Part shown: positions 5,766 to 35,509 of the stretch, in pieces
Position numbering within the stretch: the first letter of the stretch is position 1
Layout of the letters: each line of letters opens with the position of its first letter
Source: Deltaproteobacteria bacterium
Lineage (GTDB): Bacteria > Myxococcota > Myxococcia > Myxococcales > SZAS-1
Assembly: GCA_018266075.1 (NCBI GenBank)
Contig: JAFEBB010000077.1
Location: 1 to 35,598, forward strand
Direction of reading: 5' to 3'
Length of the DNA stretch: 35,598 nt
Notes under the pieces: generated by a model
The model's input: only the letters and a program-made list of their open reading frames with translations
What the model was told of the DNA's origin: nothing
Database searches by the model: none
Program-made: the position numbers and the translations under genes

Positions 5766-8176
5766 AGACGCGAATCGTTGCCGCGCTCAGCGCGCTCTCG
5801 CTGATCTCGTGCGACCAGGCCCGGAGCACGTTCGGCGCATCGGTGGACGCGCTCTCGGGAGAGGAAGACAAGAAGGCCGAGCGGCCGATGGACGAGCCCG
5901 CTGCGCCACCCGCAACGGCCGCACCCAAGGGTGCGCCACACCGGTCGGTCAGCTCCTTCGGCGCGGCCCAGGCCAAGGACGGCGACGACGACGTCATCTC
6001 AGCGAACGGCAAGGCCAAGACAGAGAGCGACTTCGATCAGCTCCTTGGCGGGGCCGGCGGCGGCGAAGGTCGAATCGAACAGCTCCGCCAGCGCCGGCAG
6101 CAGACCATCCAGGTCATCAAGGGCACCAAGGACGCGAAGGAAGCCGAGAACGAGGAGTCCCTCGCCGAGGCACCGACGCGCTCGTGGTTCCCGGAGTCGT
6201 TCCTCTTCGAGCCGCTGGTCGTCACCAATTCGCAAGGCGAGGCCTCGCTCGACATCCCCGTGCCGGATCGGCTGACGAGCTGGCGCATCCTCGCGCTGGC
6301 GCACTCGCGCGAGGGCTCGCAGGCCGGCGCGGTCACGAGTTTCCTGGGCACGCTGCCTGCATACGTTGATCCCGTGGTGCCGCCGTTCCTCATCGCGGGC
6401 GACGTGGTGAAGCTGCCCATTCAGCTCGTGAACACGACCGAGCAGAACATCGCGCTCACGCTCAAGACCGACGCGGTCGGCGGCGTGCTCACGGGCGCGA
6501 ACGCGAAGGAGAACGTGCCCGCGGGTGGCAGCAAGGTCGACTACGCGGAGCTCAAGACCGACAAGCCGGGCAACGTGTCCCTGCACGCGACCTTCGGCGA
6601 CGCAGACGCCATCGCACGTAACATTCCGGTTTACCCGTCGGGTCGGCCGGTGATGGAGCTGCGCGGCGGCACGCTCGCGGCCCCGCGCACGATGGAGATC
6701 GCCAGCGCGCCGGATCTGCTGCCCGACTCCACGCGCGTGCGGCTGATGGTTTTCCCTGGCGCGCTCGGCCTGCTGCGCTCGGAGCTGACCGCGGCGAGCT
6801 CGCGGGGCGGCGCCGCGGCGGATGGCTACGCGCTGCTGCTCGCGGGGCGCGCGCCTTCGCTCCTGCAGTCGCTCGGCGACGAGCCGAACCCGGAGGCGCT
6901 CCGGAATCTGGCCATCGTCTCCAGCCAGCGCGTGCTCCGCGACGCGCGCACGCCCGACGTCTCGACCGCGGCCTCGCTTGCGGAGGCGGCGCTCGCGCAC
7001 CCCGATAACCCGGTGCTGTCGCGGCTGGGCGAGCGGCTGGTGGCGCAGGTGGCGCAGTCGCAGCGGCCCGATGGCACGTTCCAGGGTGGAGCGGGCTGGA
7101 CGCTGCAGCGCCTGCTGGTCACAACTGCGCAGTGCGTGCAGGTCGTCGCTGCGGATGCAGGCACGACTGCGTCCAAGCAGCGCGCGGCCGCGGTGACGCT
7201 CAAGGCCCAGGGTGCGTTCGAGCGCAACCTGGAGCACATCAACGACGGCTACACGGCCGCGGCGGTGCTCGCGAGCGGCGCCGTTCCCGACAGCGTGAAG
7301 CCGCGGCTGCGCGCCAAGGTCCGCGCGGGCGTGGTCACGCGTCCCGACGGCTCGCGCGTGCTCGAGGTGGGCAAGAACGTGCAGCGTCCGGATGGCAATC
7401 CGCCCTCGCAGATGGAGGCCACCGCGCTCGCGGCCCTCGCGCTCGACGGCGATCCCGAGGCGCCCTGGCGCGCGGATCTGGGCAGCGCGCTGCTCGGCAA
7501 CTACAGCCCCGGCTCCGGCTGGGGCGACGGCGAGACCAACCTCGTCGCGCTGCGCGCGGTGCTCGCGCTGTTCAACCAGCCGCTGCCCGCCGAGGTGAAC
7601 GTCGCGCTCACCATGGACGGCAAGCCCGTCGCCCAAGGCTCGATGAAGGGCAAGGCGCTGCGCGACGTGCTCGCCCTCGACGCCGATCTCGCCAACGCCT
7701 CGGGCACGCACAGCTTCGCGGTCACGGCCACGCCGGCGGTGCCGGGCCTCGGCTTCTCGCTGGTGATGACGGGCTACGTGCCCTGGAAACCGGAGTCGAT
7801 GAACCAGGGGCTGGAGCTCGCCATCAAGCAGCCGTCGGATGGGAAGGTGGGTCAGCCGATGGAGGTGGAGGTCACTGCCGCGGCGCCGGCGAACGTGCCC
7901 GTGCGCATTCGCCATGCGCTGCCCGCGGGCGTCGACGCCGACACGCGCTCGCTCGACGCGCTCGTCACCAGCGGCGCCATCACCGCGTTCCACACCGAGC
8001 CCGGCGCGGTGGTGCTCGAGGTGCCCGCGCGGCCGGCGAACACGCCGTTCCGCGCGAGCTACCGCGTGATTCCCACGCTGGCGGGCACGCTGCACGCGGG
8101 GGCCTCGACGATCGAGGCCACCACGCGCAGCAACGCGAGCTATCACTTGCCGCCGACGGCCTGGGCCGTTCGCTAG
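5762..8176 (+). CDS. Alpha-2-macroglobulin family lipoprotein, C-terminal half (A2M and thioester-like domains)
   Basis: An 804-residue lipoprotein: MKTRIVAALSALSLISC with the acceptor Cys17 followed by Asp18, a +2 residue that in E. coli favours inner-membrane retention. Residues 20-135 are a charged, low-complexity linker with a short coiled-coil-like stretch (RIEQLRQRRQQTIQVIK). The A2M domain starts near 141 (RSWFPESFLFEPLVV, LDIPVPDRLTSWRILALAHS). The thioester-domain region begins near 331, but the usual Cys-x-Glu-Gln is absent: the equivalent stretch reads ELTAASSRGGAAADGYALLL. The helical toroid continues (QRPDGTFQGGAGW), followed by the receptor-binding-like C-terminus. It starts within the stop codon of the first half (ATGA), so the two are probably translationally coupled. 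Without a thioester, any trapping would be non-covalent, as in the thioester-less bacterial type. Confidence 0.9.
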   Translation: MKTRIVAALSALSLISCDQARSTFGASVDALSGEEDKKAERPMDEPAAPPATAAPKGAPHRSVSSFGAAQAKDGDDDVISANGKAKTESDFDQLLGGAGGGEGRIEQLRQRRQQTIQVIKGTKDAKEAENEESLAEAPTRSWFPESFLFEPLVVTNSQGEASLDIPVPDRLTSWRILALAHSREGSQAGAVTSFLGTLPAYVDPVVPPFLIAGDVVKLPIQLVNTTEQNIALTLKTDAVGGVLTGANAKENVPAGGSKVDYAELKTDKPGNVSLHATFGDADAIARNIPVYPSGRPVMELRGGTLAAPRTMEIASAPDLLPDSTRVRLMVFPGALGLLRSELTAASSRGGAAADGYALLLAGRAPSLLQSLGDEPNPEALRNLAIVSSQRVLRDARTPDVSTAASLAEAALAHPDNPVLSRLGERLVAQVAQSQRPDGTFQGGAGWTLQRLLVTTAQCVQVVAADAGTTASKQRAAAVTLKAQGAFERNLEHINDGYTAAAVLASGAVPDSVKPRLRAKVRAGVVTRPDGSRVLEVGKNVQRPDGNPPSQMEATALAALALDGDPEAPWRADLGSALLGNYSPGSGWGDGETNLVALRAVLALFNQPLPAEVNVALTMDGKPVAQGSMKGKALRDVLALDADLANASGTHSFAVTATPAVPGLGFSLVMTGYVPWKPESMNQGLELAIKQPSDGKVGQPMEVEVTAAAPANVPVRIRHALPAGVDADTRSLDALVTSGAITAFHTEPGAVVLEVPARPANTPFRASYRVIPTLAGTLHAGASTIEATTRSNASYHLPPTAWAVR

Positions 8177-10851
8177 CGCCGACGACGCAGCAGCACGAAG
8201 GCCGCGAAGAGCAACCCGAGCGGCGCCTCGAAGCTGGCGTCGCTCGCGCCGCAGCCGCAGCCCGACTTGCCGCTGCTGCCGGTGCTGCCCGTCGAGCCGG
8301 ACGCGGCCGCGCTGGTCGTCGTGCCTGCGCCGCTGGTGGTCGTCGCGCCGGTGGTGCCCGTCGTCGACGTGCCCGTGCTGCTGGCCGAGCCGGTGCTGCT
8401 GCCCGAGCTCGTCGTCGTCGTGCTCGAGCCCGTGCTGCCGCTGGAGCTGGTCGTGGTGGTGCTGCTGGGCGCGACGCAGCGGCCGCTGGCGGTGTCGCAG
8501 GTGTCCTGGAAGTCGCCGAAGTTGCAGTCCTCGTCGGTACGGCACGAGGGCAGGCACACGCCGCTGTCGCCGTTGTTGAAGTCGTTGCAGACTTGGTTGT
8601 CATCGCAGGGGCCGTTGCTGGCCATGCTGCAGCTGCGGAAGCAGAGCTGGAACGCGCCGTCGCAGGTGCTGCCGGGCGGGCACGAGCAGGCCACCGTCGA
8701 GGGATCGCAGCCGGCGGAGCAGTAGCCGTCGGGCAGGTTCACGCCGGGTGAAGGATCCGGCGGGTAGCAGAACTCCAGCGTGCCGCACTGGGTGTCGTCG
8801 GTGCACGGGTCGCCGATGGGGCCGGCGTCGCGCACTTCGGCGCAGGTGTGCATGCACGGGTCGCAGACCTGGCCGCTGGCGCAATCGGAGCTCTGGTTGC
8901 AGCCGGGCACGCACGTCGACGTCGTGGCGCTGCAGTAGTTGCCGCTGGGGCAGGTGTTCGCGCCGCTCGGGTTGCAGGCAACGGTGCACGCCGACGGGCC
9001 CTCGGTGAGGGTGGTGCACACCGCGCCGCCGTCGCAGGCGAGGATGGCGCAGGCGTCGAAGGCTGCGCGCGGTCCGCCGTCGAGCACGCCCACGCCGCCG
9101 TCGTATTCGCCCGGGTTGAAGCTGCCCGCGTCGCCCGCGTAGCCGCCGCCGTCGAAGAGCGGGCCGGAGGTGTTCGTCGACGTGCCGCTGCCGGCGCACG
9201 CGGGCCAGGCCTGCGCGAGCTGGGCGAGATCGAGCGAGCCCCAGCCGGTGGCGTCGTCGAAGCCCACCCGCGAGGACGGACCGGTGACGCCGTTCTGGGT
9301 GAGGTCGCCGGTGGTGATGTCGTGGAAGACGGCCGCGTGCGTCCCGCTGGCGCCGAGCCGATAGAGCTCGAACTGCGGCGCGCCGATGCGACAGCCGCCG
9401 ATGAAGTCGTTGATCAGCGCGAAGGCGCCTGCCGCCATGGGCGCGGCGTCGCTGGTGCCGCCCGAGGCCTCGAGGCTCCCGGGGCTGAAGTCGTCGACCA
9501 CCACGCCGACCTGCGGATCGGCCAGCAGCGAGAAGTCCGGGACCTCGCGATATATCGATTGCGTGCCGCTGCCCGTCTGGTAGCTGGGCTGGCCGAAGAT
9601 GATGCTCAGGCCGCCGCCGCCGGCGCCGTTGTTGCCGCCGCTGTTCCAGGGCGTCTCCGCGGCCCAGGCGGCGATGGCGTCGTGCGAGTCGAAGGGCGCC
9701 TGCGTCGTCGTGCCGCCCACCGAGACCATGTACGGGAGCGAGCCCGGGTAGTCGACCGCGGGGCCGTCGCCGCCGCCGCCGTCCGCGAGGATGGGGCCGG
9801 TGCCGCAGTCGTCGGCGCCGTTGTCACCCGAGGCCGCGAACCAGCTGATGCCCTCGGCCGAGCCCTGGGCCACGATGTCCGAGAGCGTGTAGACCTCGTC
9901 CGCGTAGAAGTAGAGCTCGTCGGGCTCGCAGCTGCCGTAGCTCGTGGAGACCGCGGTCACGGTGTAGTCCACGTTGGCGAAGTAGCCCATGCCCTGCAGG
10001 AACATGGTGTCCGACGGCCCGAGCACCATGGTGATCTTCTGCTCCAGCGGCGCGGCCACCGCGCTCATCTCCGCGTCGAGCTCGAGCTCGCCCTTGTCGC
10101 CCTGGTTGTCGGGCTGGCTGCCCTGGAGCCCGAGGTTCACCAGCTCGAAGGTCACCGGCGAGTCGGCCACGCTCCGGTAGAAGTAGTCGAGGTCGGCCGG
10201 ATCGGGCAGGTCCGCGGTATCCGGAATCGGGCCCACCACGCCCACGCGCGAGAGCTGACCCGCGAAGCCCTGCTGGTGCAGCGGAATCGCGTCGTAGAAG
10301 CGGCGCAGGTCCTGCGGGCCGAAGGCGTCGTACTGCGGCAAGGCCATGCGGCGCTTGAAGCGCGAGCGCGTGTCGAGGCCGGAGAGGCTCTGCACCTTCG
10401 ACGCGAGCGCGCTGGGCAGCGTGGGCTTGCCCTGGAAGGTGCGGAAGCGCTGGCCCGAGGCCGTGCGCACGTCCCACAGCGTCACGCCCAGGAGCTGCTC
10501 GACCTCGCTCACCGTGCCCGTCGCGTGCAGCAGCAGCCGGCTTGGATAGCGGGTCACCTCGAGTCCGGTCTTCGCGAGCGCGCGCGCGGCCGCGTCGTAC
10601 GCGGGCTGGGAAAGACCGAAGCGCGCACCGAACTCGGTCGGTGTCAGCCAGCGGCGGAAGGTCGGCGACTTGGGGTCGTGCTGCGCGGCGATGAGCGCGT
10701 CGAGGCCCGCGTGATCCACGAGCGTGAGGCCAACCATCAGGCTCGCTTGCGCCGTCGGCGACGCGCGCTCCAGCGTCGCGCCCGGCGGCACCGGCTGCGC
10801 GGTGGGCAGGCCAGCGATGGCCGCGGTGAGGAGCAGGGCAGGGACGAGCAT
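8173..10851 (-). CDS. S53 (sedolisin/kumamolisin) serine peptidase with Cys-rich region and MYXO-CTERM-like tail
   Basis: An 892-residue secreted peptidase. A pro-kumamolisin activation domain (residues about 30-170; SPTFRRWLTPTEFGARFGLS) precedes the catalytic domain. The sedolisin Glu/Asp pair is in GELELDAEMSAV (about E255 and D259), an SGDNG segment lies near 340, and the nucleophile Ser is in SGGTSDAAPMAAG. After the protease come about 200 residues rich in Cys, then a Ser/Thr/Gly linker, then GCGCGASDASFEAPLGLLFAAFVLLRRRR read in parts: Cys pair, hydrophobic stretch, four Arg. This is a MYXO-CTERM sorting signal, so surface anchoring is expected. The start is uncertain: ATG 10851 opens a signal peptide (MLVPALLLTAAIAG), while a GTG at 10914 would add 21 residues. 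Neither has a strong ribosome site. The family cleaves proteins at acidic pH. Confidence 0.92.
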   Translation of the reverse strand: MLVPALLLTAAIAGLPTAQPVPPGATLERASPTAQASLMVGLTLVDHAGLDALIAAQHDPKSPTFRRWLTPTEFGARFGLSQPAYDAAARALAKTGLEVTRYPSRLLLHATGTVSEVEQLLGVTLWDVRTASGQRFRTFQGKPTLPSALASKVQSLSGLDTRSRFKRRMALPQYDAFGPQDLRRFYDAIPLHQQGFAGQLSRVGVVGPIPDTADLPDPADLDYFYRSVADSPVTFELVNLGLQGSQPDNQGDKGELELDAEMSAVAAPLEQKITMVLGPSDTMFLQGMGYFANVDYTVTAVSTSYGSCEPDELYFYADEVYTLSDIVAQGSAEGISWFAASGDNGADDCGTGPILADGGGGDGPAVDYPGSLPYMVSVGGTTTQAPFDSHDAIAAWAAETPWNSGGNNGAGGGGLSIIFGQPSYQTGSGTQSIYREVPDFSLLADPQVGVVVDDFSPGSLEASGGTSDAAPMAAGAFALINDFIGGCRIGAPQFELYRLGASGTHAAVFHDITTGDLTQNGVTGPSSRVGFDDATGWGSLDLAQLAQAWPACAGSGTSTNTSGPLFDGGGYAGDAGSFNPGEYDGGVGVLDGGPRAAFDACAILACDGGAVCTTLTEGPSACTVACNPSGANTCPSGNYCSATTSTCVPGCNQSSDCASGQVCDPCMHTCAEVRDAGPIGDPCTDDTQCGTLEFCYPPDPSPGVNLPDGYCSAGCDPSTVACSCPPGSTCDGAFQLCFRSCSMASNGPCDDNQVCNDFNNGDSGVCLPSCRTDEDCNFGDFQDTCDTASGRCVAPSSTTTTSSSGSTGSSTTTTSSGSSTGSASSTGTSTTGTTGATTTSGAGTTTSAAASGSTGSTGSSGKSGCGCGASDASFEAPLGLLFAAFVLLRRRR

Positions 10852-26343: not shown

Positions 26344-27284
26344 CCGGCGGCGCGCCTTCGGGGCCGCGGCTGATCGTGGTCGCGGGGCCGACGGCGTCGG
26401 GGAAGTCGGCGCTTGCTGCGGCCCTGGCCCTGGCGCTCGGCGGCGAGGTGGTCTCCGCCGACTCCCAGCAGGTGTACCAGGGCTTCGACATCGGCACGGC
26501 CAAGCCGACGCCCGACGAGCTCGCGCTCGCGCCGCACCATCTGATTTCGATCCTCGACGCGCGCGAGGCGCGCATGGACGCCGCGCGCTACGCCGATCGC
26601 GCCGACGCCGCCATTCGCGAGATCGCCGCGCGCGATCACGTCGCGATTGTCGCAGGTGGCACCGGGCTCTACCTGCGCGCGCTGCTGCACGGCGTGATGG
26701 ACGCGCCCGGCCGCGATCAGGCGTTCCGCGACGCGCTCCGCATTCGTGCAGCGGAAGTCGGCTGGCCCGCGCTGCACGCCGAGCTCGCCGAAAAAGATCC
26801 TGAGGCGGCTGCGGCGATCACCCCGCAGGACCGCGTGCGCATCGAGCGGGCGCTGGAGCTCATCGCGACGACGGGACAGCGCGCGTCGGAGCTGCGCAAG
26901 GCGCACGGCTTTCTGCCCGCGCGCTACGAGTTCCTCGGGCTGCGGCTGGAGCTTCCGCGCGAAGAGCTCTACGCGCGCATCGACGCACGCACCCAGGCGA
27001 TGTTCGACGGCGGGCTCGTCGAAGAAACGGAGCGGCTGTTGTCGCAAGGCCTGGACGACGCGCCGCCGATGGCGAGCATCGGCTACCTGCAGGCGCGAGC
27101 GGTGCTTCGCGGCGAGCTCACCCGCGAGCAGGCCGTCGCAGATACCGCGCAGCAGACGCGCAAGTACGCCAAGCGGCAGCTCACGTGGTTCAAGAAGGAG
27201 CCGGGCTTTCGCGCCATCGCGGCGCCCGATGCAGAGGGGCTCGCGCGCTTGATCGACGAAGCGCACGCGTTTCTTCGGCGCTAG
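26340..27284 (+). CDS. miaA: tRNA dimethylallyltransferase MiaA
   Basis: A 314-residue enzyme that transfers a dimethylallyl group from DMAPP to N6 of A37 in tRNAs reading codons that begin with U. The P-loop is GPTASGKS (16-23). SADSQQVYQGFDIGTAKP carries the catalytic Asp and the DSxQVY motif. HHLISILD, VAGGTGLYLRALLHG, DRVRIERALELIATTG and TRKYAKRQLTWFKKE complete the signature. Start is GTG 26340, overlapping the preceding stop (GTGA), with no closer alternative that keeps the P-loop strand. Its natural substrates would include the tRNA-Leu(CAA) and tRNA-Tyr encoded in this window. It ends in a CTAG shared with the convergent flavoprotein-receiver gene. Confidence 0.97.
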   Translation: MTGGAPSGPRLIVVAGPTASGKSALAAALALALGGEVVSADSQQVYQGFDIGTAKPTPDELALAPHHLISILDAREARMDAARYADRADAAIREIAARDHVAIVAGGTGLYLRALLHGVMDAPGRDQAFRDALRIRAAEVGWPALHAELAEKDPEAAAAITPQDRVRIERALELIATTGQRASELRKAHGFLPARYEFLGLRLELPREELYARIDARTQAMFDGGLVEETERLLSQGLDDAPPMASIGYLQARAVLRGELTREQAVADTAQQTRKYAKRQLTWFKKEPGFRAIAAPDAEGLARLIDEAHAFLRR

Positions 27285-28852
27285 AGCGCGCGCAGGCCCT
27301 CGAGCCGACGCGCCAGCGCTTCGAGGTCCACGGGCTTGGCGAAGAAGCCGTCGGCGCCGGCAGAGAGCGCGGCTCGGCGATCGCTCGCGCGCGTCAGCCC
27401 CGAGACCACGAAGATCGGCGTGTGCCGGGTGGTCGGGTGATTGCGCAGCGCGCGGCAGAGGCGAAGGCCGTCGACCCAATCGAGCACCACGTCGAGCAGC
27501 ACCGCGCGGGGCGGCTCTTCGGCGGCGGCGGCGAGCAGGTCGAGCTCGTCGGCGAGGGCGCGCACCGGCAGCGAGCGCGCGGTGAGGAACTCGCAGAGCA
27601 GCGCGCGCTGTGCGGGATCGTCGTCGACCACGTAGACCGGACGCCGCGCCGGAAGCTTCGGCGGCAGCCCGGGACCTTGCTCGTGCCAGAGCCGCCGGAA
27701 CGGTCCCCACAGCGAGGGCCCCCAGAGGTGCGCGCGCGCCTCGTGCCCCGGCGGACCGAGCCCGAGGATGAAGCCGCCGTTCGCACCGCTCGCGCCCGCG
27801 CGTCCAAGCGCGGCGGGCCCACCTGGGCCCGCTCGAAGAAGTCGGCGCACGGCCACCACCGCGTCGTGCGCGTCGGCGCGCGGACCTGCCAGCAGCGAAG
27901 CGGCCCGCAGCGGCAGATCTTCCATCGCGGCCGCGCTCTCGAGAACAGCGTGGGCCGCGCGCTGGCCCTGCTCGAGCGCTGGCCCGAGCGGATCCAGCGG
28001 CGAAGCGGCGTACGCGTCGGCGACGTGCAGCACGTGCGGTTCGGCCGTCCACGAGGTCTTGCCCCAGCCCAACCGCACCGCCGCGAGCTCGGCGATCTCC
28101 AGGCCCGCGGGCAACGCGCCCTGTCGACGCAGCTCGGCCATTGCGAGGGCCAGCTGGCTCGCGCCCGGCCGCGCTCCCCAGGCCGTGATGTGCAGCGAGC
28201 TCGTGGACGGCACGGCGAGGAGCAGGTCCACGCCCTGGCACGGCCGCACGAAGAGCCGGATGAAGGTCCCCAGCTCCACGCACGCTCGCGACGAGGCAAA
28301 GAGCCGCGCGCGCACCGCATCGCGCGCCGACGCGTCTCGTCCCGGGAGCGGCCGGGTGGCGCAGAGCAGCTGGGCGCGCTCCGGTCCGCCGCCCGCGAGG
28401 AGCGCGAGGTGATCGCCGCGCACCTCGACGGCGTCCACGGGCCGGCCCACCAACCGCGCGCCCCGCAGCGCAGCCGCCTGCTGCAGGAGTCGATCGAGCA
28501 GCACGGAGCCGGCTGCTTGCGCGGGCCAGCCGTCGATCACCAGCGCGTTCGCGGGCGGGATGGGCAAGAGCTCCGAGCGTCCGGCGGACCAAATGAGGAT
28601 CCCGCGCAGCTCCAGCGCGGCGAGCTCCGGCGGAATGACCACCCCGAGCGAGGCGAGCCGATGTCGCGCGAGCGGTCCGAGCACGGCGGGCGGCTGGGCG
28701 GAGAGCTGTTCGGGGCCGTCGTAGAGCCGCACCGAGGGCCGGAGCCCGCGCAGCTGCGCGCCGCCGAGGAGCCCGATGGCGAAGGCGCTCGCCGCCGGCC
28801 CGCCGCCGCTGACCGCGACCTCCGCACCTGCTTCCAACGGCCGGCCGCCCAT
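27281..28852 (-). CDS. Flavoprotein-like (geranylgeranyl-reductase fold) protein fused to a receiver domain
   Basis: A 523-residue fusion. Residues 10-45 form an FAD-binding beta-alpha-beta (EVAVSGGGPAASAFAIGLL, then VRLYDG). Next come LLDRLLQQAAALRGARLVGR, typical of the aromatic-hydroxylase/geranylgeranyl-reductase superfamily, and VLHVADAYAASPLDPLGPAL (277-293), the second FAD motif with Ala instead of the usual Gly before Asp. Residues 405-520 are a complete receiver domain: VYVVDDDPAQ, phosphoacceptor Asp454 (AVLLDVVLDWVDGL), VVSG and Lys506 (FFAKPVDL). Between them lies a linker with GPSLWGPFRRLWHEQG. ATG 28852 is 12 bases after the hybrid kinase stop, with GGAG nine bases upstream. Phosphorylation might gate flavin or substrate binding (inference); the flavin part could instead be a non-catalytic sensor. 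Confidence 0.87.
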   Translation of the reverse strand: MGGRPLEAGAEVAVSGGGPAASAFAIGLLGGAQLRGLRPSVRLYDGPEQLSAQPPAVLGPLARHRLASLGVVIPPELAALELRGILIWSAGRSELLPIPPANALVIDGWPAQAAGSVLLDRLLQQAAALRGARLVGRPVDAVEVRGDHLALLAGGGPERAQLLCATRPLPGRDASARDAVRARLFASSRACVELGTFIRLFVRPCQGVDLLLAVPSTSSLHITAWGARPGASQLALAMAELRRQGALPAGLEIAELAAVRLGWGKTSWTAEPHVLHVADAYAASPLDPLGPALEQGQRAAHAVLESAAAMEDLPLRAASLLAGPRADAHDAVVAVRRLLRAGPGGPAALGRAGASGANGGFILGLGPPGHEARAHLWGPSLWGPFRRLWHEQGPGLPPKLPARRPVYVVDDDPAQRALLCEFLTARSLPVRALADELDLLAAAAEEPPRAVLLDVVLDWVDGLRLCRALRNHPTTRHTPIFVVSGLTRASDRRAALSAGADGFFAKPVDLEALARRLEGLRAL

Positions 28853-28864
28853 GAGGCCACTCCG

Positions 28865-31327
28865 TCAGGCGGGCATCGCGTTGGCCGCGCCGTCCGCCGC
28901 ATCGACGCCCGCCACGCAGACCCGGTCGCGCCCCGCGCGCTTGGCGGCGTAGAGCGCTTCGTCGGCGCCGCGCAGCGCCTCCTCGGGCCCGGTCACGCCG
29001 TCCGCCGGCAGCGCGCACACCCCGAAGCTCGCGTGCAGCGACACGCGCTCGCCGCCATGGGGCAGCCGCAGCTGGCCCAGCCCCGCACGCACGCGCTCGG
29101 CGAAGATCGCGGCCTCCTCCGCGCGGGTGTGGGGCAGGAGCACCACGAACTCGTCGCCGCCGAAGCGTGCGGCGAAGTCCGAGCCGCGCAGGTTGGAGCG
29201 CACGTGATCCGCCAGCGCGACGATGGCGCGGTTGCCGGCCTCGTGCCCGTGGGCGTCGTTGAGCTGCTTGAGCCGGTCGAGGTCGATCATCACCGCCGAG
29301 AGCGGCGTGTGGTACCGCGCAGCGCGCTTGAGCTCCTCGTCGAGGCGGGTTCGGAAGGCGCCGTAGTTGGGCAGCCCGGTGAGCGCGTCGACCTGGGCCA
29401 GCGCCGCCGCCGCCCGCCGCTGCCGCGTGGCCTCCAGCGCCTTCTCCACCCGCGCCAAGAGCTCGCGCGGCGAGAACGGCTTCACCAGGTAGTCCGCGGC
29501 GCCCAGGCCGAGCACGCGCAGCTTCACCTGCTCGTCGCCCGAGCCCGAGAGGAAGATGACCGGCGTCTCCACCGTGCGCGGATCGCGGCGGAGATCCTCG
29601 AGCGCGGCGAAGCCGTCGAGCCGGGGCATGAAGAGATCCATGAGCACCACGTCGGGCCGCTCGGTGCGCGCGAGCCGCACGCCGTCTTCTCCGTCCTCGG
29701 CGCAGATGACCTCGAAGCGATCGCGCATGAGCTCCAGCGTCACCTCGCGCACGTCGCGGTCGTCCTCCACCACGAGCACGCGCGGCCGCTCGGTGGTCGC
29801 CTCCACGTCGCGCTCGCCGCCACGCAGCGGCAAGCGAATCGTGAAGCGCGTGCCTTGGCCGAGCGCGCTCTGGACGCTGATTGTCCCGCCGTGAAGCCGC
29901 AGCACCTCGCGCGCCCACGACAGCCCCAGGCCCACGCCGCCGCCGCCCACCGCGCGCCCGCTGCGGCCGCGTCGGTAGCGCTGGAAGAGGTGCGGCAGCT
30001 CGTCGGGCGCGATGCCCGGGCCGTTGTCGGCGATGACCACGGTGGTGCCGAGCGCGTCCTGCTTGAGGTCGAGCACCACCTGGCCGCCTGCAGGCGTGTA
30101 CTTCACGGCGTTGGCGAGCAGGTTGCCCACCGCTTCGCGCAGCCGGGGCGCATCGACCTCGATGGGCTGAGGGCCCTGGAGCAGCCCCTCGGCGATGAGC
30201 TCCACGCCCCGGGCTTGCGCGGCCGGCAGCGCCGCTTCGACACACTCCGCGAGCAGCACCGCGGGGTCGGTCGACACGCGCTGCAGCTCGAGCGTCCCCG
30301 TCTCCAGGGCGCGCTGGGCGAGGAGGCTGTGGATGAGCTCCTCCATCGTCCGCGCCTGGCGCAGCATGGCATCCACCGAGGCGCGCGCCGGCACCGGCAG
30401 CGCCCCGCGCGCGCCCGCACCGAGCAAGGTCGCGTGGCTGAGCAGCGCCGTGAGCGGGCTTCGCAGGTCGTGAACGCAGACGGCGAGGAACTCGTCCTTG
30501 GCGTGGTTCAGCTCGCGCAGCCGGCGGTTGGATTCGAGCAGATCGCGGAAGCGTCCGAGGAACGCCTCCTCCAGCGACACCGCGCCGCGCACCGCATTTC
30601 CCAGCGCGGGCCCGAGCGCGCCGAAGGCCTCGAGGTGCGCGGGCGTGGGCAGCTCGCCGAGCGTGGCCACCACGGCGCCGAGCGACTCGCCGTCGTGGTA
30701 CAGCCCGAGCACCGCCACGGCCTCCGCGCCATTCAGCCGACGGACGATCGCCGGCGGTGCTTCCACGCCAGCCGTGAAGATGCGGACGCCTGGAGGACCC
30801 AGCGCCACCTTGGGAAGCTCGGGGTCGGGCTCGTTGGACTCGATGGCACGTCCACCGGCGCGCACGAAGCAGCGCTGACCGCCGCGCCCGCCCAAAACCA
30901 CCAGCTCGACAGCTCGTGCTGCCAGCGTGCGCTCGGCCTCGGCCAGGGCCAGCTCCGCCGCGATCGGCAAGGGAATGGCGCCGCCGGAGGTCGCTCTTCC
31001 GCGCTGGAGCCGCGCGCGCACGCGGGCCAACAGCTCGGCCGGTGTCGAGGCGTACTCGTCGGCGCCTTCTTGCAGCCAACGCGCGCCCAGCTCGGGCTCA
31101 TCGGCGAGCACGGCCACGAACGGGCTTCGACCGCGGTTGCCCTCGGTGGCGTCGAGCCGCGCGAACGTCGCCTGCGGCCCGGCGCGCGCCGCATCCACCA
31201 GCGCCAGACACGGCGCGTGCGGCCCGTCCGACGCGAGCGCGTGGCCGTCGGCGCAAAGCGCGTCCACCACCGGCCGAAGGCGGGCGCTCTCTGCGGGCAG
31301 CCAGATCACCAGCTCCTGCTCTCCCAC
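28865..31327 (-). CDS. Hybrid histidine kinase with receiver and GGDEF diguanylate cyclase domains
   Basis: An 820-residue cytoplasmic signalling protein with no membrane segment. Order: degenerate receiver-like region (1-110), GAF-like region (about 122-265), HisKA with phosphorylatable His286 (AVCVHDLRSPLTALL), HATPase with N box NLLANAVKY, DNGPGIA and GVGLGL (up to about 500). A receiver follows with Asp564 (VVLMDLFMPRLDG) and Lys616, then GGDEF (645-800) with the intact active site FGGDEF (723-727) and an inhibitory-site-type RGSD at 714-717. It should autophosphorylate, transfer to Asp564 and control c-di-GMP synthesis with product feedback. GTG 31327 is chosen because GGAGG lies four bases ahead; the frame is open 46 codons further. 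The downstream flavoprotein-receiver is a probable second phosphorylation target. Confidence 0.94.
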   Translation of the reverse strand: MGEQELVIWLPAESARLRPVVDALCADGHALASDGPHAPCLALVDAARAGPQATFARLDATEGNRGRSPFVAVLADEPELGARWLQEGADEYASTPAELLARVRARLQRGRATSGGAIPLPIAAELALAEAERTLAARAVELVVLGGRGGQRCFVRAGGRAIESNEPDPELPKVALGPPGVRIFTAGVEAPPAIVRRLNGAEAVAVLGLYHDGESLGAVVATLGELPTPAHLEAFGALGPALGNAVRGAVSLEEAFLGRFRDLLESNRRLRELNHAKDEFLAVCVHDLRSPLTALLSHATLLGAGARGALPVPARASVDAMLRQARTMEELIHSLLAQRALETGTLELQRVSTDPAVLLAECVEAALPAAQARGVELIAEGLLQGPQPIEVDAPRLREAVGNLLANAVKYTPAGGQVVLDLKQDALGTTVVIADNGPGIAPDELPHLFQRYRRGRSGRAVGGGGVGLGLSWAREVLRLHGGTISVQSALGQGTRFTIRLPLRGGERDVEATTERPRVLVVEDDRDVREVTLELMRDRFEVICAEDGEDGVRLARTERPDVVLMDLFMPRLDGFAALEDLRRDPRTVETPVIFLSGSGDEQVKLRVLGLGAADYLVKPFSPRELLARVEKALEATRQRRAAAALAQVDALTGLPNYGAFRTRLDEELKRAARYHTPLSAVMIDLDRLKQLNDAHGHEAGNRAIVALADHVRSNLRGSDFAARFGGDEFVVLLPHTRAEEAAIFAERVRAGLGQLRLPHGGERVSLHASFGVCALPADGVTGPEEALRGADEALYAAKRAGRDRVCVAGVDAADGAANAMPA

Positions 31328-31582
31328 GCCGCCTCCGCGGGCCTGCGAATCCCGACCGAGCAAGCTAGGACGCCCGCGCGCGAAGAGAAGTGCCCCGTCC
31401 GCAGGATGTGGCGAGCAACGCGCGTGCCCGGGCGGCCGATTCGGCGCTGGCGTCGCGCACGTCACGACGCGCGTGCCGGAAAGCGCGCACTGCCGCCGCA
31501 GAAGAAGCTTCGACCCGCGAAGGAATTGCGGCGCGCCACGCGAGCGCGCGACAGCCCTTCGCGAAATTTTCGGTGGGCTGGT
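31328..31582. other. Intergenic region upstream of the hybrid kinase gene
   Basis: The longest gap in the window (255 bases), lying between the TPR gene and the kinase gene, both on the reverse strand. It should hold the kinase promoter, but I see no convincing -35/-10 pair. A hairpin at 31552-31580 lies next to the TPR stop. A forward open frame covering part of it has Arg/Ala-rich shadow-like composition and is not called. Confidence 0.5.
31552..31580 (-). terminator. Possible hairpin after the TPR gene
   Basis: CAGCCC and GGGCTG form 6-bp arms around 17 bases, which include a nested CGAAA/TTTCG pairing. It starts two bases beyond the TPR stop on the reverse strand. No T-run follows, so it may be an mRNA 3'-end stabiliser rather than an intrinsic terminator. 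Confidence 0.3.
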
Positions 31583-32320
31583 CTAGCGCCGGCGGTAGCG
31601 CTGGAAGCGAACCTGCGGCATGGCTGTCGGCGGCTGCTCGAGGCCGAACTGCCACCAGTTGGGCGTGAAGGGATCCATCTTCAAGCGCTTGCCGTTCTGG
31701 AGCTGGTTCTGGAGCTTCTTGAGCTTCTCGTCCGAGGGATTCTCGGCGACGGCGCGGCCCGCTGCGGCCACGGCGGCGTCGTGCTGCTTGGTGTTCTCGA
31801 GGCACCAGCAGTACGCGGCCCAGGCCATCGACTCCTTCTTGCCGCCGCCGCTGACGGCCTCTTCGAAGGCCTTGGCCATCGGCTCCGTCTCCTTGGCCAT
31901 GTAGTGGATGCAGCCGAGGTACGTCTTGGCCATCCAGTTGCGGCTGATCGCGCCGGCGAGGTGGGGCTTGGCCGCGGCGTAGTCGCCCTTCATGTACTGG
32001 AGCATTCCCACGTTGGCCTGGATCTCCGAGCCAATGAAGAACTGCCAGCTCGAGAGCTTGAGCGCGCTCTCGAAGATCTTGATGGCCTTGTCGAGGGCGC
32101 CGTTGCGCTCCTTCTCGGTGCGGATGCCCTGGAGCACGGCCTGGGCTTGCTCGGCGATGGCTTGCACTTGAGACGCGATGCGGCGTGCGAGCAAGAGGTA
32201 GACGGCCACCATCACCAGCGAGCCGGGGAGCACGCAGGCGATCCAGCCGAAGCCGAAGATGGCGTGCAGGAGCACCGTCACCAGCGCGCCCGCGACGACG
32301 GAGAGGATGAGGTTGATCAT
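31583..32320 (-). CDS. Membrane-anchored TPR-like protein
   Basis: A 245-residue protein. Two closely spaced membrane segments occupy residues about 3-45 (LILSVVAGALVTVLLHAIFG, then ACVLPGSLVMVAVYLLLAR). The rest is helical with TPR-like repeats: LDKAIKIFESALKLSSWQF, QANVGMLQYMKGDYAAAKPH, MAKTYLGCIHYMAKETEPMA, ESMAWAAYCWCLENTKQHDA. TPR arrays bind protein partners; none is suggested by context. The end is basic (QVRFQRYRRR). No ribosome site is visible before ATG 32320 (the leader is C-rich). It is divergent from tRNA-Leu. Confidence 0.87.
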   Translation of the reverse strand: MINLILSVVAGALVTVLLHAIFGFGWIACVLPGSLVMVAVYLLLARRIASQVQAIAEQAQAVLQGIRTEKERNGALDKAIKIFESALKLSSWQFFIGSEIQANVGMLQYMKGDYAAAKPHLAGAISRNWMAKTYLGCIHYMAKETEPMAKAFEEAVSGGGKKESMAWAAYCWCLENTKQHDAAVAAAGRAVAENPSDEKLKKLQNQLQNGKRLKMDPFTPNWWQFGLEQPPTAMPQVRFQRYRRR

Positions 32321-32449: not shown

Positions 32450-32534
32450 GGCCCTCTGGCGGAATTGGTAGACGCAGCGGACTCAAAATCCGCCGCCCCC
32501 TAAAGGCGTCCCGGTTCGAGTCCGGGGTGGGCCA
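32450..32534 (+). tRNA. tRNA-Leu(CAA)
   Basis: An 85-base type II tRNA. The acceptor 5' strand is GGCCCTC and the 3' strand GTGGGCC, with discriminator A; position 6 pairs T with T (U6-U67 mismatch). The anticodon stem GCGGA/TCCGC encloses loop CTCAAAA with anticodon CAA, reading UUG. There is a long variable arm, and the T arm is CCCGG-TTCGAGT-CCGGG. The 3' CCA is not encoded. It lies 15 bases before rsmB on the same strand. Confidence 0.95.
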
Positions 32535-32549
32535 CTCCCTTCAAATCCG

Positions 32550-33839
32550 ATGGCAACCAAGAAGGCCATCCGAGCCGCGTTGGTCTCGCTCGACGCGCTC
32601 GCGCAAGGCGAGCCGCTCCGGCTCGCGGTTTCCCAGGGGCTGCGCTCGGAGTCGGACCTCGGGCCGAAGGAGCGGCGCTGGGCGGCGTCGGCGGCGCGCG
32701 AGGTGTGTCGCGATTTGCGGCGGCTCGACGCGTTCCTCGCGCAAGCCGGGCTCGCCCTGCGCACGCTCATTCCCCAGGACAAGAGCCTCGCGCGGCTGCT
32801 CGCGGTTCGGCTGCGCGTCCACGGCGATGATCCGAAGGTCGCGCTGCGAGAGCTGGCGCTGCCCGGGCCGCGCCGGCCGAGATCGATCAGCGATGCGCAG
32901 CTCGCCGATGTCGCTTCGAAGATGCCCGCGGAGCTCGAGCTCCCGGAGGATCCGATCGCGCGTCGAGCGCTGCAGTTCTCGTATCCCGATTGGATCTTGC
33001 AGGAGCTGGCCGACGCGATTCCGCAGGGTGAGCTCGACCCGTGGCTCGATGCGAACGCCGCGGCGCCAGGGCTCGACCTGCGCGTGAACCTCGCGCGCGC
33101 CAAGCCGGACGACGTGCGCGCCGAGCTCGAGAAAGCAGGATTTGCGATCGAGCAGGGCCGCTTCTTGCCCGAAGCGCTGCGCTGCGAGGACCGGGCGGCG
33201 CTCTTCGATACTTCCGCGTTCAAGCAAGGCCGCATCGACGTCCAGGATGAAGCGAGCCAGCTCATCGTGCGGCTCTGCGGCGTTTCACCGGGAGTGAAGT
33301 CGCTGGATTTCTGTGCGGGCGCCGGTGGCAAGTCGCTCGCGCTGGCGGCGCTCGGCGCGCGCGTGACCGCGACCGACGGCATAGCCGCGCGGCTCAAGCC
33401 GCTGCGCGAGCGTCGCAAGCGCGCGGGCGCGCACATCGAGATCGTCGACCGGGCGGAGGGCGAGTTCGAGGTCGTGCTCGTCGACGCGCCGTGCTCGGGA
33501 TTGGGCGCGCTCGCGCGCGAGCCGGACGGGAAGTGGCGGCTCGCGAAGGACGCGCTCGCGGCCCTGCCCGACAAGCAGCTGGCGATCCTCGAGCAGGCGA
33601 GCACGCACGTCGCGAAGGGCGGGCGGCTCGTGTACGCCACCTGCTCGCCGCTGCCCGAGGAGGACGAGCGCGTGGTCGAGCGGTTCCTCGCGAAGCATCC
33701 GGATTTCTCTCAGCTCCCGCCCGCGCGCACGCTCGGCGAGGCATTGGCCAACCGGCTCGGCGCCGAGCAGGCGATGCGGCTCTGGGCCCATCGGCATGGG
33801 ACCGGCTCGTTCTTCGCGGCGCTGCTCGCGCGCCGCTGA
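32550..33839 (+). CDS. rsmB: 16S rRNA (cytosine-967 C5)-methyltransferase RsmB
   Basis: A 429-residue m5C methyltransferase. Residues 1-135 are a NusB-like helical RNA-binding domain (KKAIRAALVSLDALAQGE, LGPKERRWAASAAREVCRDL). The Rossmann part follows: GRIDVQDEASQLIVRLCGV, SAM loop LDFCAGAGGKSLALAALG, TDGIAARLKPLRERRKRAG. The two family Cys are in VLVDAPCSGLGALAREPD and LVYATCSPLPEEDERVV. The product methylates C967 of 16S rRNA. ATG 32550 follows the tRNA-Leu 3' end by only 15 bases, with no ribosome-site-like sequence between, so tRNA processing would leave a very short leader. The family usually shows the NusB-fused form, as here. Confidence 0.95.
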   Translation: MATKKAIRAALVSLDALAQGEPLRLAVSQGLRSESDLGPKERRWAASAAREVCRDLRRLDAFLAQAGLALRTLIPQDKSLARLLAVRLRVHGDDPKVALRELALPGPRRPRSISDAQLADVASKMPAELELPEDPIARRALQFSYPDWILQELADAIPQGELDPWLDANAAAPGLDLRVNLARAKPDDVRAELEKAGFAIEQGRFLPEALRCEDRAALFDTSAFKQGRIDVQDEASQLIVRLCGVSPGVKSLDFCAGAGGKSLALAALGARVTATDGIAARLKPLRERRKRAGAHIEIVDRAEGEFEVVLVDAPCSGLGALAREPDGKWRLAKDALAALPDKQLAILEQASTHVAKGGRLVYATCSPLPEEDERVVERFLAKHPDFSQLPPARTLGEALANRLGAEQAMRLWAHRHGTGSFFAALLARR

Positions 33840-35153: not shown

Positions 35154-35226
35154 GTCGGCGTAGCTCAGTTGGCAGAGCAGCTGACTTGTAATCAGCAGGT
35201 CGCGAGTTCGATTCTCGCCGCCGGCT
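35154..35226 (+). tRNA. tRNA-Thr(TGT)
   Basis: A 73-base tRNA. The acceptor GTCGGCG pairs with CGCCGGC (one G-U), with discriminator T. The anticodon arm GCTGA-CTTGTAA-TCAGC gives TGT, reading ACA. The T arm is GCGAG-TTCGATT-CTCGC. CCA is not encoded. It is first in the tRNA-tuf operon, equivalent to thrU of E. coli. Confidence 0.96.
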
Positions 35227-35243
35227 CAGTTTGAAGGCATCCC

Positions 35244-35330
35244 GGAGGGGTGCCCGAGCGGCCAAAGGGAGCAGACTGTAAATCTGCCGGCTCTACGCCT
35301 TCGGTGGTTCGAATCCACCCCCCTCCACCA
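35244..35330 (+). tRNA. tRNA-Tyr(GTA)
   Basis: An 87-base type II tRNA including an encoded CCA (35328-35330). The acceptor GGAGGGG pairs with CCCCTCC, discriminator A. The anticodon arm GCAGA-CTGTAAA-TCTGC gives GTA. A long variable arm is present. It is second in the operon, equivalent to tyrU. Confidence 0.96.
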
Positions 35331-35352
35331 CCGTAACGAGGAGCAGCACTTC

Positions 35353-35428
35353 GCGGGAATAGCTCAGCTGGTAGAGCGTCAGCCTTCCAAGCTGAATGTC
35401 GCGGGTTCGAATCCCGTTTCCCGCTCCA
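35353..35428 (+). tRNA. tRNA-Gly(TCC)
   Basis: A 76-base tRNA including encoded CCA (35426-35428). The acceptor GCGGGAA pairs with TTCCCGC, discriminator T. The anticodon arm TCAGC-CTTCCAA-GCTGA gives TCC, reading GGA. It is third in the operon, equivalent to glyT. Confidence 0.96.
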
Positions 35429-35436
35429 CACCGAAC

Positions 35437-35509
35437 GCCCTCTTAGCTCAGTTGGCAGAGCGCATCCTTGGTAAGGATGAGGTCTCCAGTTCAATCCTGG
35501 AAGAGGGCT
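35437..35509 (+). tRNA. tRNA-Thr(GGT)
   Basis: A 73-base tRNA. The acceptor GCCCTCT pairs with AGAGGGC, discriminator T. The anticodon arm CATCC-TTGGTAA-GGATG gives GGT, reading ACC. CCA is not encoded. It is fourth in the operon, equivalent to thrT, and 34 bases before tuf. Confidence 0.96.

Follow-up and report, generated by a model that had tools for sequence, protein, structure and literature searches.

A DmxB-type diguanylate cyclase with its own histidine kinase, paired with a predicted flavoprotein-fold response regulator, in a myxobacterial contig

We describe a two-gene signalling unit from a myxobacterial genome (Deltaproteobacteria bacterium, GenBank assembly GCA_018266075.1). The analysed DNA, positions 1 to 35,598 of the forward strand of contig JAFEBB010000077.1, is referred to here in its full length of 35,598 nucleotides as the window. 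One gene of the unit encodes a hybrid histidine kinase/diguanylate cyclase (the hybrid), the other a protein in which an N-terminal domain (N-domain) of predicted flavoprotein fold is followed by a receiver (the fusion). Judged by residues, gene order and neighbours, the unit is the dmxB-MXAN_3734 locus of Myxococcus xanthus in another family of the order, with a kinase built into the cyclase.

The two genes and their domains

The features of the unit are listed below, with positions in the window and in amino acids (aa) of the respective protein.

28865-31327, minus strand: DmxB-type hybrid histidine kinase/diguanylate cyclase, 820 aa, consisting of N-terminal region (1-265), HisKA, HATPase_c, receiver (REC) and GGDEF
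30533-31327, minus strand: N-terminal region of the kinase, aa 1-265, possible sensor, no Pfam family above cut-off
30317-30502, minus strand: HisKA dimerisation and phosphoacceptor domain, aa 276-337, His286 checked (Pfam PF00512, E 9.3e-10)
29822-30154, minus strand: HATPase_c catalytic domain of the kinase, aa 392-502 (Pfam PF02518, E 5.5e-29)
29444-29779, minus strand: receiver of the hybrid, aa 517-628, phosphoacceptor D564, counterpart of the DmxB receiver (D60) (Pfam PF00072, E 8.6e-26)
28922-29398, minus strand: GGDEF diguanylate cyclase domain, aa 644-802, GGDEF at 723 and I-site RGSD at 714 (Pfam PF00990, E 9.9e-43)
28853-28864, minus strand: 12 bases between the two genes, including a GGAG ribosome-binding site of the fusion gene
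27281-28852, minus strand: MXAN_3734-type protein, 523 aa, ATG start, predicted geranylgeranyl-reductase-like (GR2) flavoprotein-fold domain plus receiver
27680-28852, minus strand: predicted GR2/PHBH-type flavoprotein-fold domain, aa about 1-391 (AlphaFold model and profile match to geranylgeranyl reductases)
28790-28807, minus strand: dinucleotide-binding motif GGGPAA, aa 16-21 (GxGxxA; GxGxxG in relatives)
27302-27637, minus strand: receiver of the fusion, aa 406-517, with D454, S484 and K506 (Pfam PF00072, E 1e-19)

The hybrid is read from a GTG start in a frame that opens at 31465. An earlier, sequence-only reading of this DNA had placed a kinase-receiver-GGDEF gene and a flavoprotein-receiver gene on one strand, 12 bases apart, with a complete receiver behind the flavoprotein fold. 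This layout stands, as Pfam finds all four domains of the hybrid, H286 and D564 are present, and D454, S484 and K506 of the fusion are intact. Within 27200-31600, a promoter search gave no sigma-70-like site, and terminator-like sites were not above chance.

Orthology and conservation of the pair

DmxB (MXAN_3735) is a REC-GGDEF diguanylate cyclase essential for fruiting-body development in M. xanthus, with the characteristic residues D60, R210ESD and G219GDEF (PMC4877007). According to RNA-seq, dmxB and MXAN_3734 form a two-gene operon, and MXAN_3734 is described as a protein of 577 aa with a C-terminal receiver and no known domains in the remainder (PMC8844925). In M. xanthus AM003 (locus L060), the fusion's ortholog likewise has 577 aa, and the gene upstream of it carries exactly the published DmxB residues. 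The window hybrid is 50% identical to DmxB over REC-GGDEF, and the fusion shares 33-40% identity over the whole protein with other members of its family. A search with the window fusion as single sequence reached E 5e-32 to genome G050; the hidden Markov model of the N-domain, of which the window is itself one row, matches the window fusion with E 9.8e-132. Moreover, miaA, the TPR gene and the gene at 32550 of the window have syntenic counterparts beside the pair in Myxococcaceae. Since residues, operon order and flanks all match, the unit is, on this sequence evidence, not an undescribed system. The sequence-only reading had known of no described system coupling a phosphorelay directly to such a flavoprotein; this claim falls with the M. 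xanthus operon, though the flavoprotein fold went unrecognised there (PMC4877007, PMC8844925). Literature joining response regulators to geranylgeranyl-reductase or flavin adenine dinucleotide (FAD) domains was sought, and nothing relevant was found in a search with most subscription journals outside its coverage.

To survey the distribution of the family, 195 Myxococcota genomes were scanned, which called for the family alignment as query because the single window sequence gave no relatives. The N-domain was found in 81 of these genomes and 22 of 90 genera, a few of the matches being weak or stand-alone, and the named loci include Myxococcus, Corallococcus, Pyxidicoccus, Archangium, Hyalangium and Citreicoccus. 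The two genes are adjacent in four lineages, labelled f1, f3, f6 and f9. In the Myxococcaceae (f3), every fetched locus with upstream sequence holds REC-GGDEF plus flavoprotein-receiver, and f6 has the same arrangement; these two lineages make up nearly all genomes found, and their unit is without kinase. A kinase within the unit occurs only in the window and in f9, where two loci (L109, L111) encode a histidine kinase-REC-GGDEF protein next to the flavoprotein-receiver. As HisKA and HATPase_c precede the receiver, we classify the window hybrid as a kinase-bearing variant and ortholog of DmxB, like those of f9. Trees of both genes group f9 with f3 members and do not separate gain from loss of the kinase.

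The same two f9 loci, which belong to another family, keep the pair although none of the other flanking genes remains beside it, so the pair is held by something beyond general synteny, and chance co-location is ruled out. That the fusion is a chimera or a sequencing or assembly error is likewise ruled out, because proteins of this build recur in dozens of genomes. Three f3 genomes are without both genes of the pair. In a further lineage, f2, the flavoprotein-receiver is present without an adjacent DmxB-type cyclase (L045, L046, L043/L117), and the best cyclase matches spanning both domains in f2 genomes reach 30-38% identity to DmxB, compared to 46-81% for orthologs.

Several individual loci deserve separate mention. 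In L110 of f9 (7728-8981, minus strand), HisKA is present with its His and HATPase_c is gone, so that, provided the assembly is correct, the kinase core has been cleanly lost from within the protein. The REC-GGDEF protein of L047 in f6 (8970-10289, minus strand) has an N-terminal extension (residues 1-130) that resembles a degenerate receiver and gives no match in Pfam. A pseudo-receiver was also considered for the N-terminus of the window kinase, given its GADEY...LLARVRARL tail and the similar-looking L047 extension, and was rejected (BLAST E 0.11 over 14 residues, no support from Pfam). L071 (BNCN01000013.1), titled Comamonas sp. KCTC 72670, is Myxococcus-like over the whole locus and falls into f3; the record looks mislabelled. 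At least one f2 genome comes from a gut sample according to its record title (L076, sheep colon). In the window, four tRNA genes (Thr, Tyr, Gly, Thr) are clustered at 35154-35509, and a tRNA-Leu gene lies at 32450-32535.

Fold, motifs and selection in the N-domain

Direct sequence searches say little about the N-domain. In Pfam, Response_reg at 406-517 is the sole match on the fusion, which leaves the N-domain of the window protein without any model, and none of the 25 families listed from NCBIfam matches it. Among relatives, the N-domain has weak matches to DAO, NAD_binding_9 and GG-red-SF; the last of these (TIGR02032) matches 3 of 11 family N-domains with a best E of 2.1e-4, under its curated NCBIfam cut-off of 158.8 bits. 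Searched against PDB sequences, the N-domain profile returned only marginal flavoprotein matches and an unrelated sugar-binding protein.

Structure prediction gives a far clearer result. The AlphaFold model of the window fusion, computed with 27 family sequences, has a mean pLDDT of 76, and its residues 8-391 resemble GR2/PHBH-type flavoproteins (5bul, Z 28.9; 3oz2, Z 28.7, with 349 residues aligned at 3.5 Å and 13% identity); Foldseek returns flavoprotein folds with E down to 7e-16. A model of the M. xanthus ortholog (pLDDT 82, pTM 0.78) has 3oz2 as top match (E 1.1e-17, Z 28.6), the two models sharing most of their alignment and thus not being fully independent. The predicted fold is unambiguously that of the GR2 flavoproteins. 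Compared profile to profile, the N-domain also matches a set of 18 canonical proteins of geranylgeranyl-reductase type taken from relatives (probability 98.7, E 3.6e-16, 317 columns), which indicates common ancestry with these reductases. The FAD-type, geranylgeranyl-reductase-like fold named in the sequence-only reading is hence upheld by both models and profile, even where Pfam is blank.

A fold match of a model does not by itself establish flavin binding. Cofactor and active-site motifs were surveyed in 19 diverse family members, including the window protein. The glycine-rich nucleotide loop is kept as GxGxxG in 18 of them and as GxGxxA in the window. The CGEG/CGxG loop that follows strand 2 in the reductases is gone in all 19, as is the Asp of the DG motif (AADG..SP.R). 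The Asp of the GD motif persists in the window only (VADA, D279); the other 18 have Pro, Ala, Ser, Thr or Glu instead, with Glu in f9. Strand 2 ends in an acidic residue (Asp or Glu) in eight members, the window among them (D45). Other conserved residues of the N-domain are R63, R65, D107, R183 and R199. The lost motifs speak against reductase activity, more strongly for Myxococcaceae than for the window protein, and a redox or lipid-modifying activity as second output of the kinase, as proposed in the sequence-only reading, is not supported.

Nevertheless, the N-domain is evidently under purifying selection and not decaying, with ratios of non-synonymous to synonymous substitution (dN/dS) among close relatives of 0.08-0.22, and of 0-0.15 for the receiver. 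The receiver's catalytic residues (D410-D412, D454, S484 and K506 in the window) are kept in the aligned members. The fused receivers also carry a DVVLxWxDG signature after the phosphoacceptor Asp (27467-27493, minus strand, in the window), nearly invariant in f1, f2 and f3, with a Trp in a loop that usually has Pro. A weak N-domain relative from an f5 genome (L119, 6390-7766) is a stand-alone flavoprotein of 458 aa without receiver, which still has a CGG loop together with the GD motif.

Proposed mechanism, alternatives and relation to known systems

We give roughly even odds (about 0.5) to the view that the unit combines a DmxB-type cyclase bearing its own kinase with a receiver-switched pseudo-enzyme, derived from a flavoenzyme, as partner in the cyclic di-GMP (c-di-GMP) pathway. 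The computed part of this view comprises domain content, fold, orthology, conserved pairing, motif loss and purifying selection; phosphorylation of either receiver, ligand binding by the N-domain and modulation of the cyclase are what we infer beyond it. The hybrid's kinase, retained or gained in the window lineage, would most likely pass phosphate from H286 to D564 in the receiver of the same protein; c-di-GMP output of the GGDEF domain would be controlled in this way, like that of other REC-GGDEF cyclases. The N-domain of the fusion would descend from a geranylgeranyl-reductase-like flavoenzyme. Because this domain retains fold and nucleotide loop and has lost the catalytic loop and most flavin-contact motifs, the fusion is most likely a pseudo-enzyme that binds a ligand or a protein and is switched when D454 is phosphorylated. 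Its N-domain probably binds either a partner protein or a ligand resembling a nucleotide, and the fusion would act in the c-di-GMP pathway of the hybrid, as its partner or as a modulator.

Several observations weigh against the pseudo-enzyme partner. In lineage f2 the flavoprotein-receiver has neither an adjacent DmxB-type cyclase nor a close one elsewhere in the genome, so this protein cannot act only through such a cyclase. In M. xanthus, deletion of MXAN_3734, a response regulator gene downstream of dmxB, caused no developmental phenotype under the standard conditions tested, and DmxB D60N is functional (PMC4877007); development there thus depends on neither partner nor phosphorylation. A phosphorylation-independent DmxB would fit a lineage without kinase in the unit. 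Finally, D279 of the GD motif and the strand-2 acid D45 are both present in the window protein, which may thus still bind FAD.

These two residues, together with the GR2 flavoenzyme fold and a GxGxxG/A loop in all members, are also what favours a working FAD reductase or monooxygenase gated by receiver phosphorylation, in which case the kinase would have two outputs, c-di-GMP and redox or lipid modification. We consider this improbable, given the complete loss of the CGEG loop and the DG-motif Asp, the replacement of the GD-motif Asp in all members but the window, and the f3 and f6 units that have no kinase at all. The idea of one kinase with two outputs is more generally weakened: with the kinase in only two lineages and the flavoprotein-receiver kept in f2 without cyclase, it is possible in the window lineage and appears not to be conserved wiring. 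In known kinase-regulator complexes the first helix of the receiver faces the kinase. When the kinase-facing residues of the two receivers were compared for a hint of a common kinase, the first helices differed within each pair, which is only suggestive.

Alternatively, the N-domain could be a redox or flavin sensor, whose non-catalytic binding of FAD or of a redox ligand alters the receiver and feeds back on cyclase or kinase. A conserved nucleotide loop beside lost catalytic motifs, strong purifying selection and the known flavin-based redox sensing by PAS domains of c-di-GMP proteins (PMC8846402) would suit such a sensor. However, the flavin-contact motifs are eroded in most members, and the literature search gave no sensor of GR2 fold coupled to a receiver; we therefore regard it as unlikely, if conceivable. 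More speculative is a phosphorylation-coupled flavin/redox switch in which the GR2-fold domain plus receiver would sense a redox ligand and tune the developmental c-di-GMP synthase DmxB. If true, it would represent a direct redox input to myxobacterial multicellular development and a new class of response regulator. Also rather doubtful is that the two genes are merely co-expressed neighbours with separate jobs, the flavoprotein-receiver serving a different kinase in a different pathway. While f2, the differing receiver helices and the lack of a developmental defect upon MXAN_3734 deletion (PMC4877007) speak for separate jobs, the pair is adjacent in four lineages, also where every other neighbour is different, and both genes are missing together from three f3 genomes.

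The c-di-GMP made by DmxB is needed for fruiting and sporulation of M. xanthus, and no kinase is known for its receiver. What is new here is the predicted GR2 flavoprotein fold of MXAN_3734-type N-domains, in an already known operon, and the histidine kinase built into a DmxB-type cyclase, a hybrid form absent from the DmxB literature consulted (PMC4877007, PMC8844925). The fold assignment and the kinase-fused cyclases open MXAN_3734 function and DmxB control to experiment, and the fused kinase may guide the way to any separate DmxB kinase.

Compared to the known systems, the window hybrid has in common with DmxB the phosphoacceptor Asp, the GGDEF and RxxD I-site motifs, the place upstream of an MXAN_3734-type gene and the flanks (TPR gene, miaA). 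It differs by about 500 extra residues up front (N-terminal region plus HisKA-HATPase kinase), whereas DmxB is REC-GGDEF alone with the receiver at its N-terminus. The fusion resembles MXAN_3734 in domain order and operon place, with about 39% identity overall, and has D45, D279 and GxGxxA where the M. xanthus type has Ser, Pro and GxGxxG. With GR2 flavoproteins (Ta0516, 3OZ2; TIGR02032) the N-domain shares the fold over its whole length, along with profile similarity; unlike these reductases, it is without CGEG loop and DG-motif Asp and is fused to a receiver. The hybrid kinases and REC-GGDEF cyclases of the LvrA, DgcR and PleD type consist of the same domain classes, but the window matches lie far under the curated cut-offs of those families, and pairing with a flavoprotein-receiver is, to our knowledge, not a described feature of these proteins.

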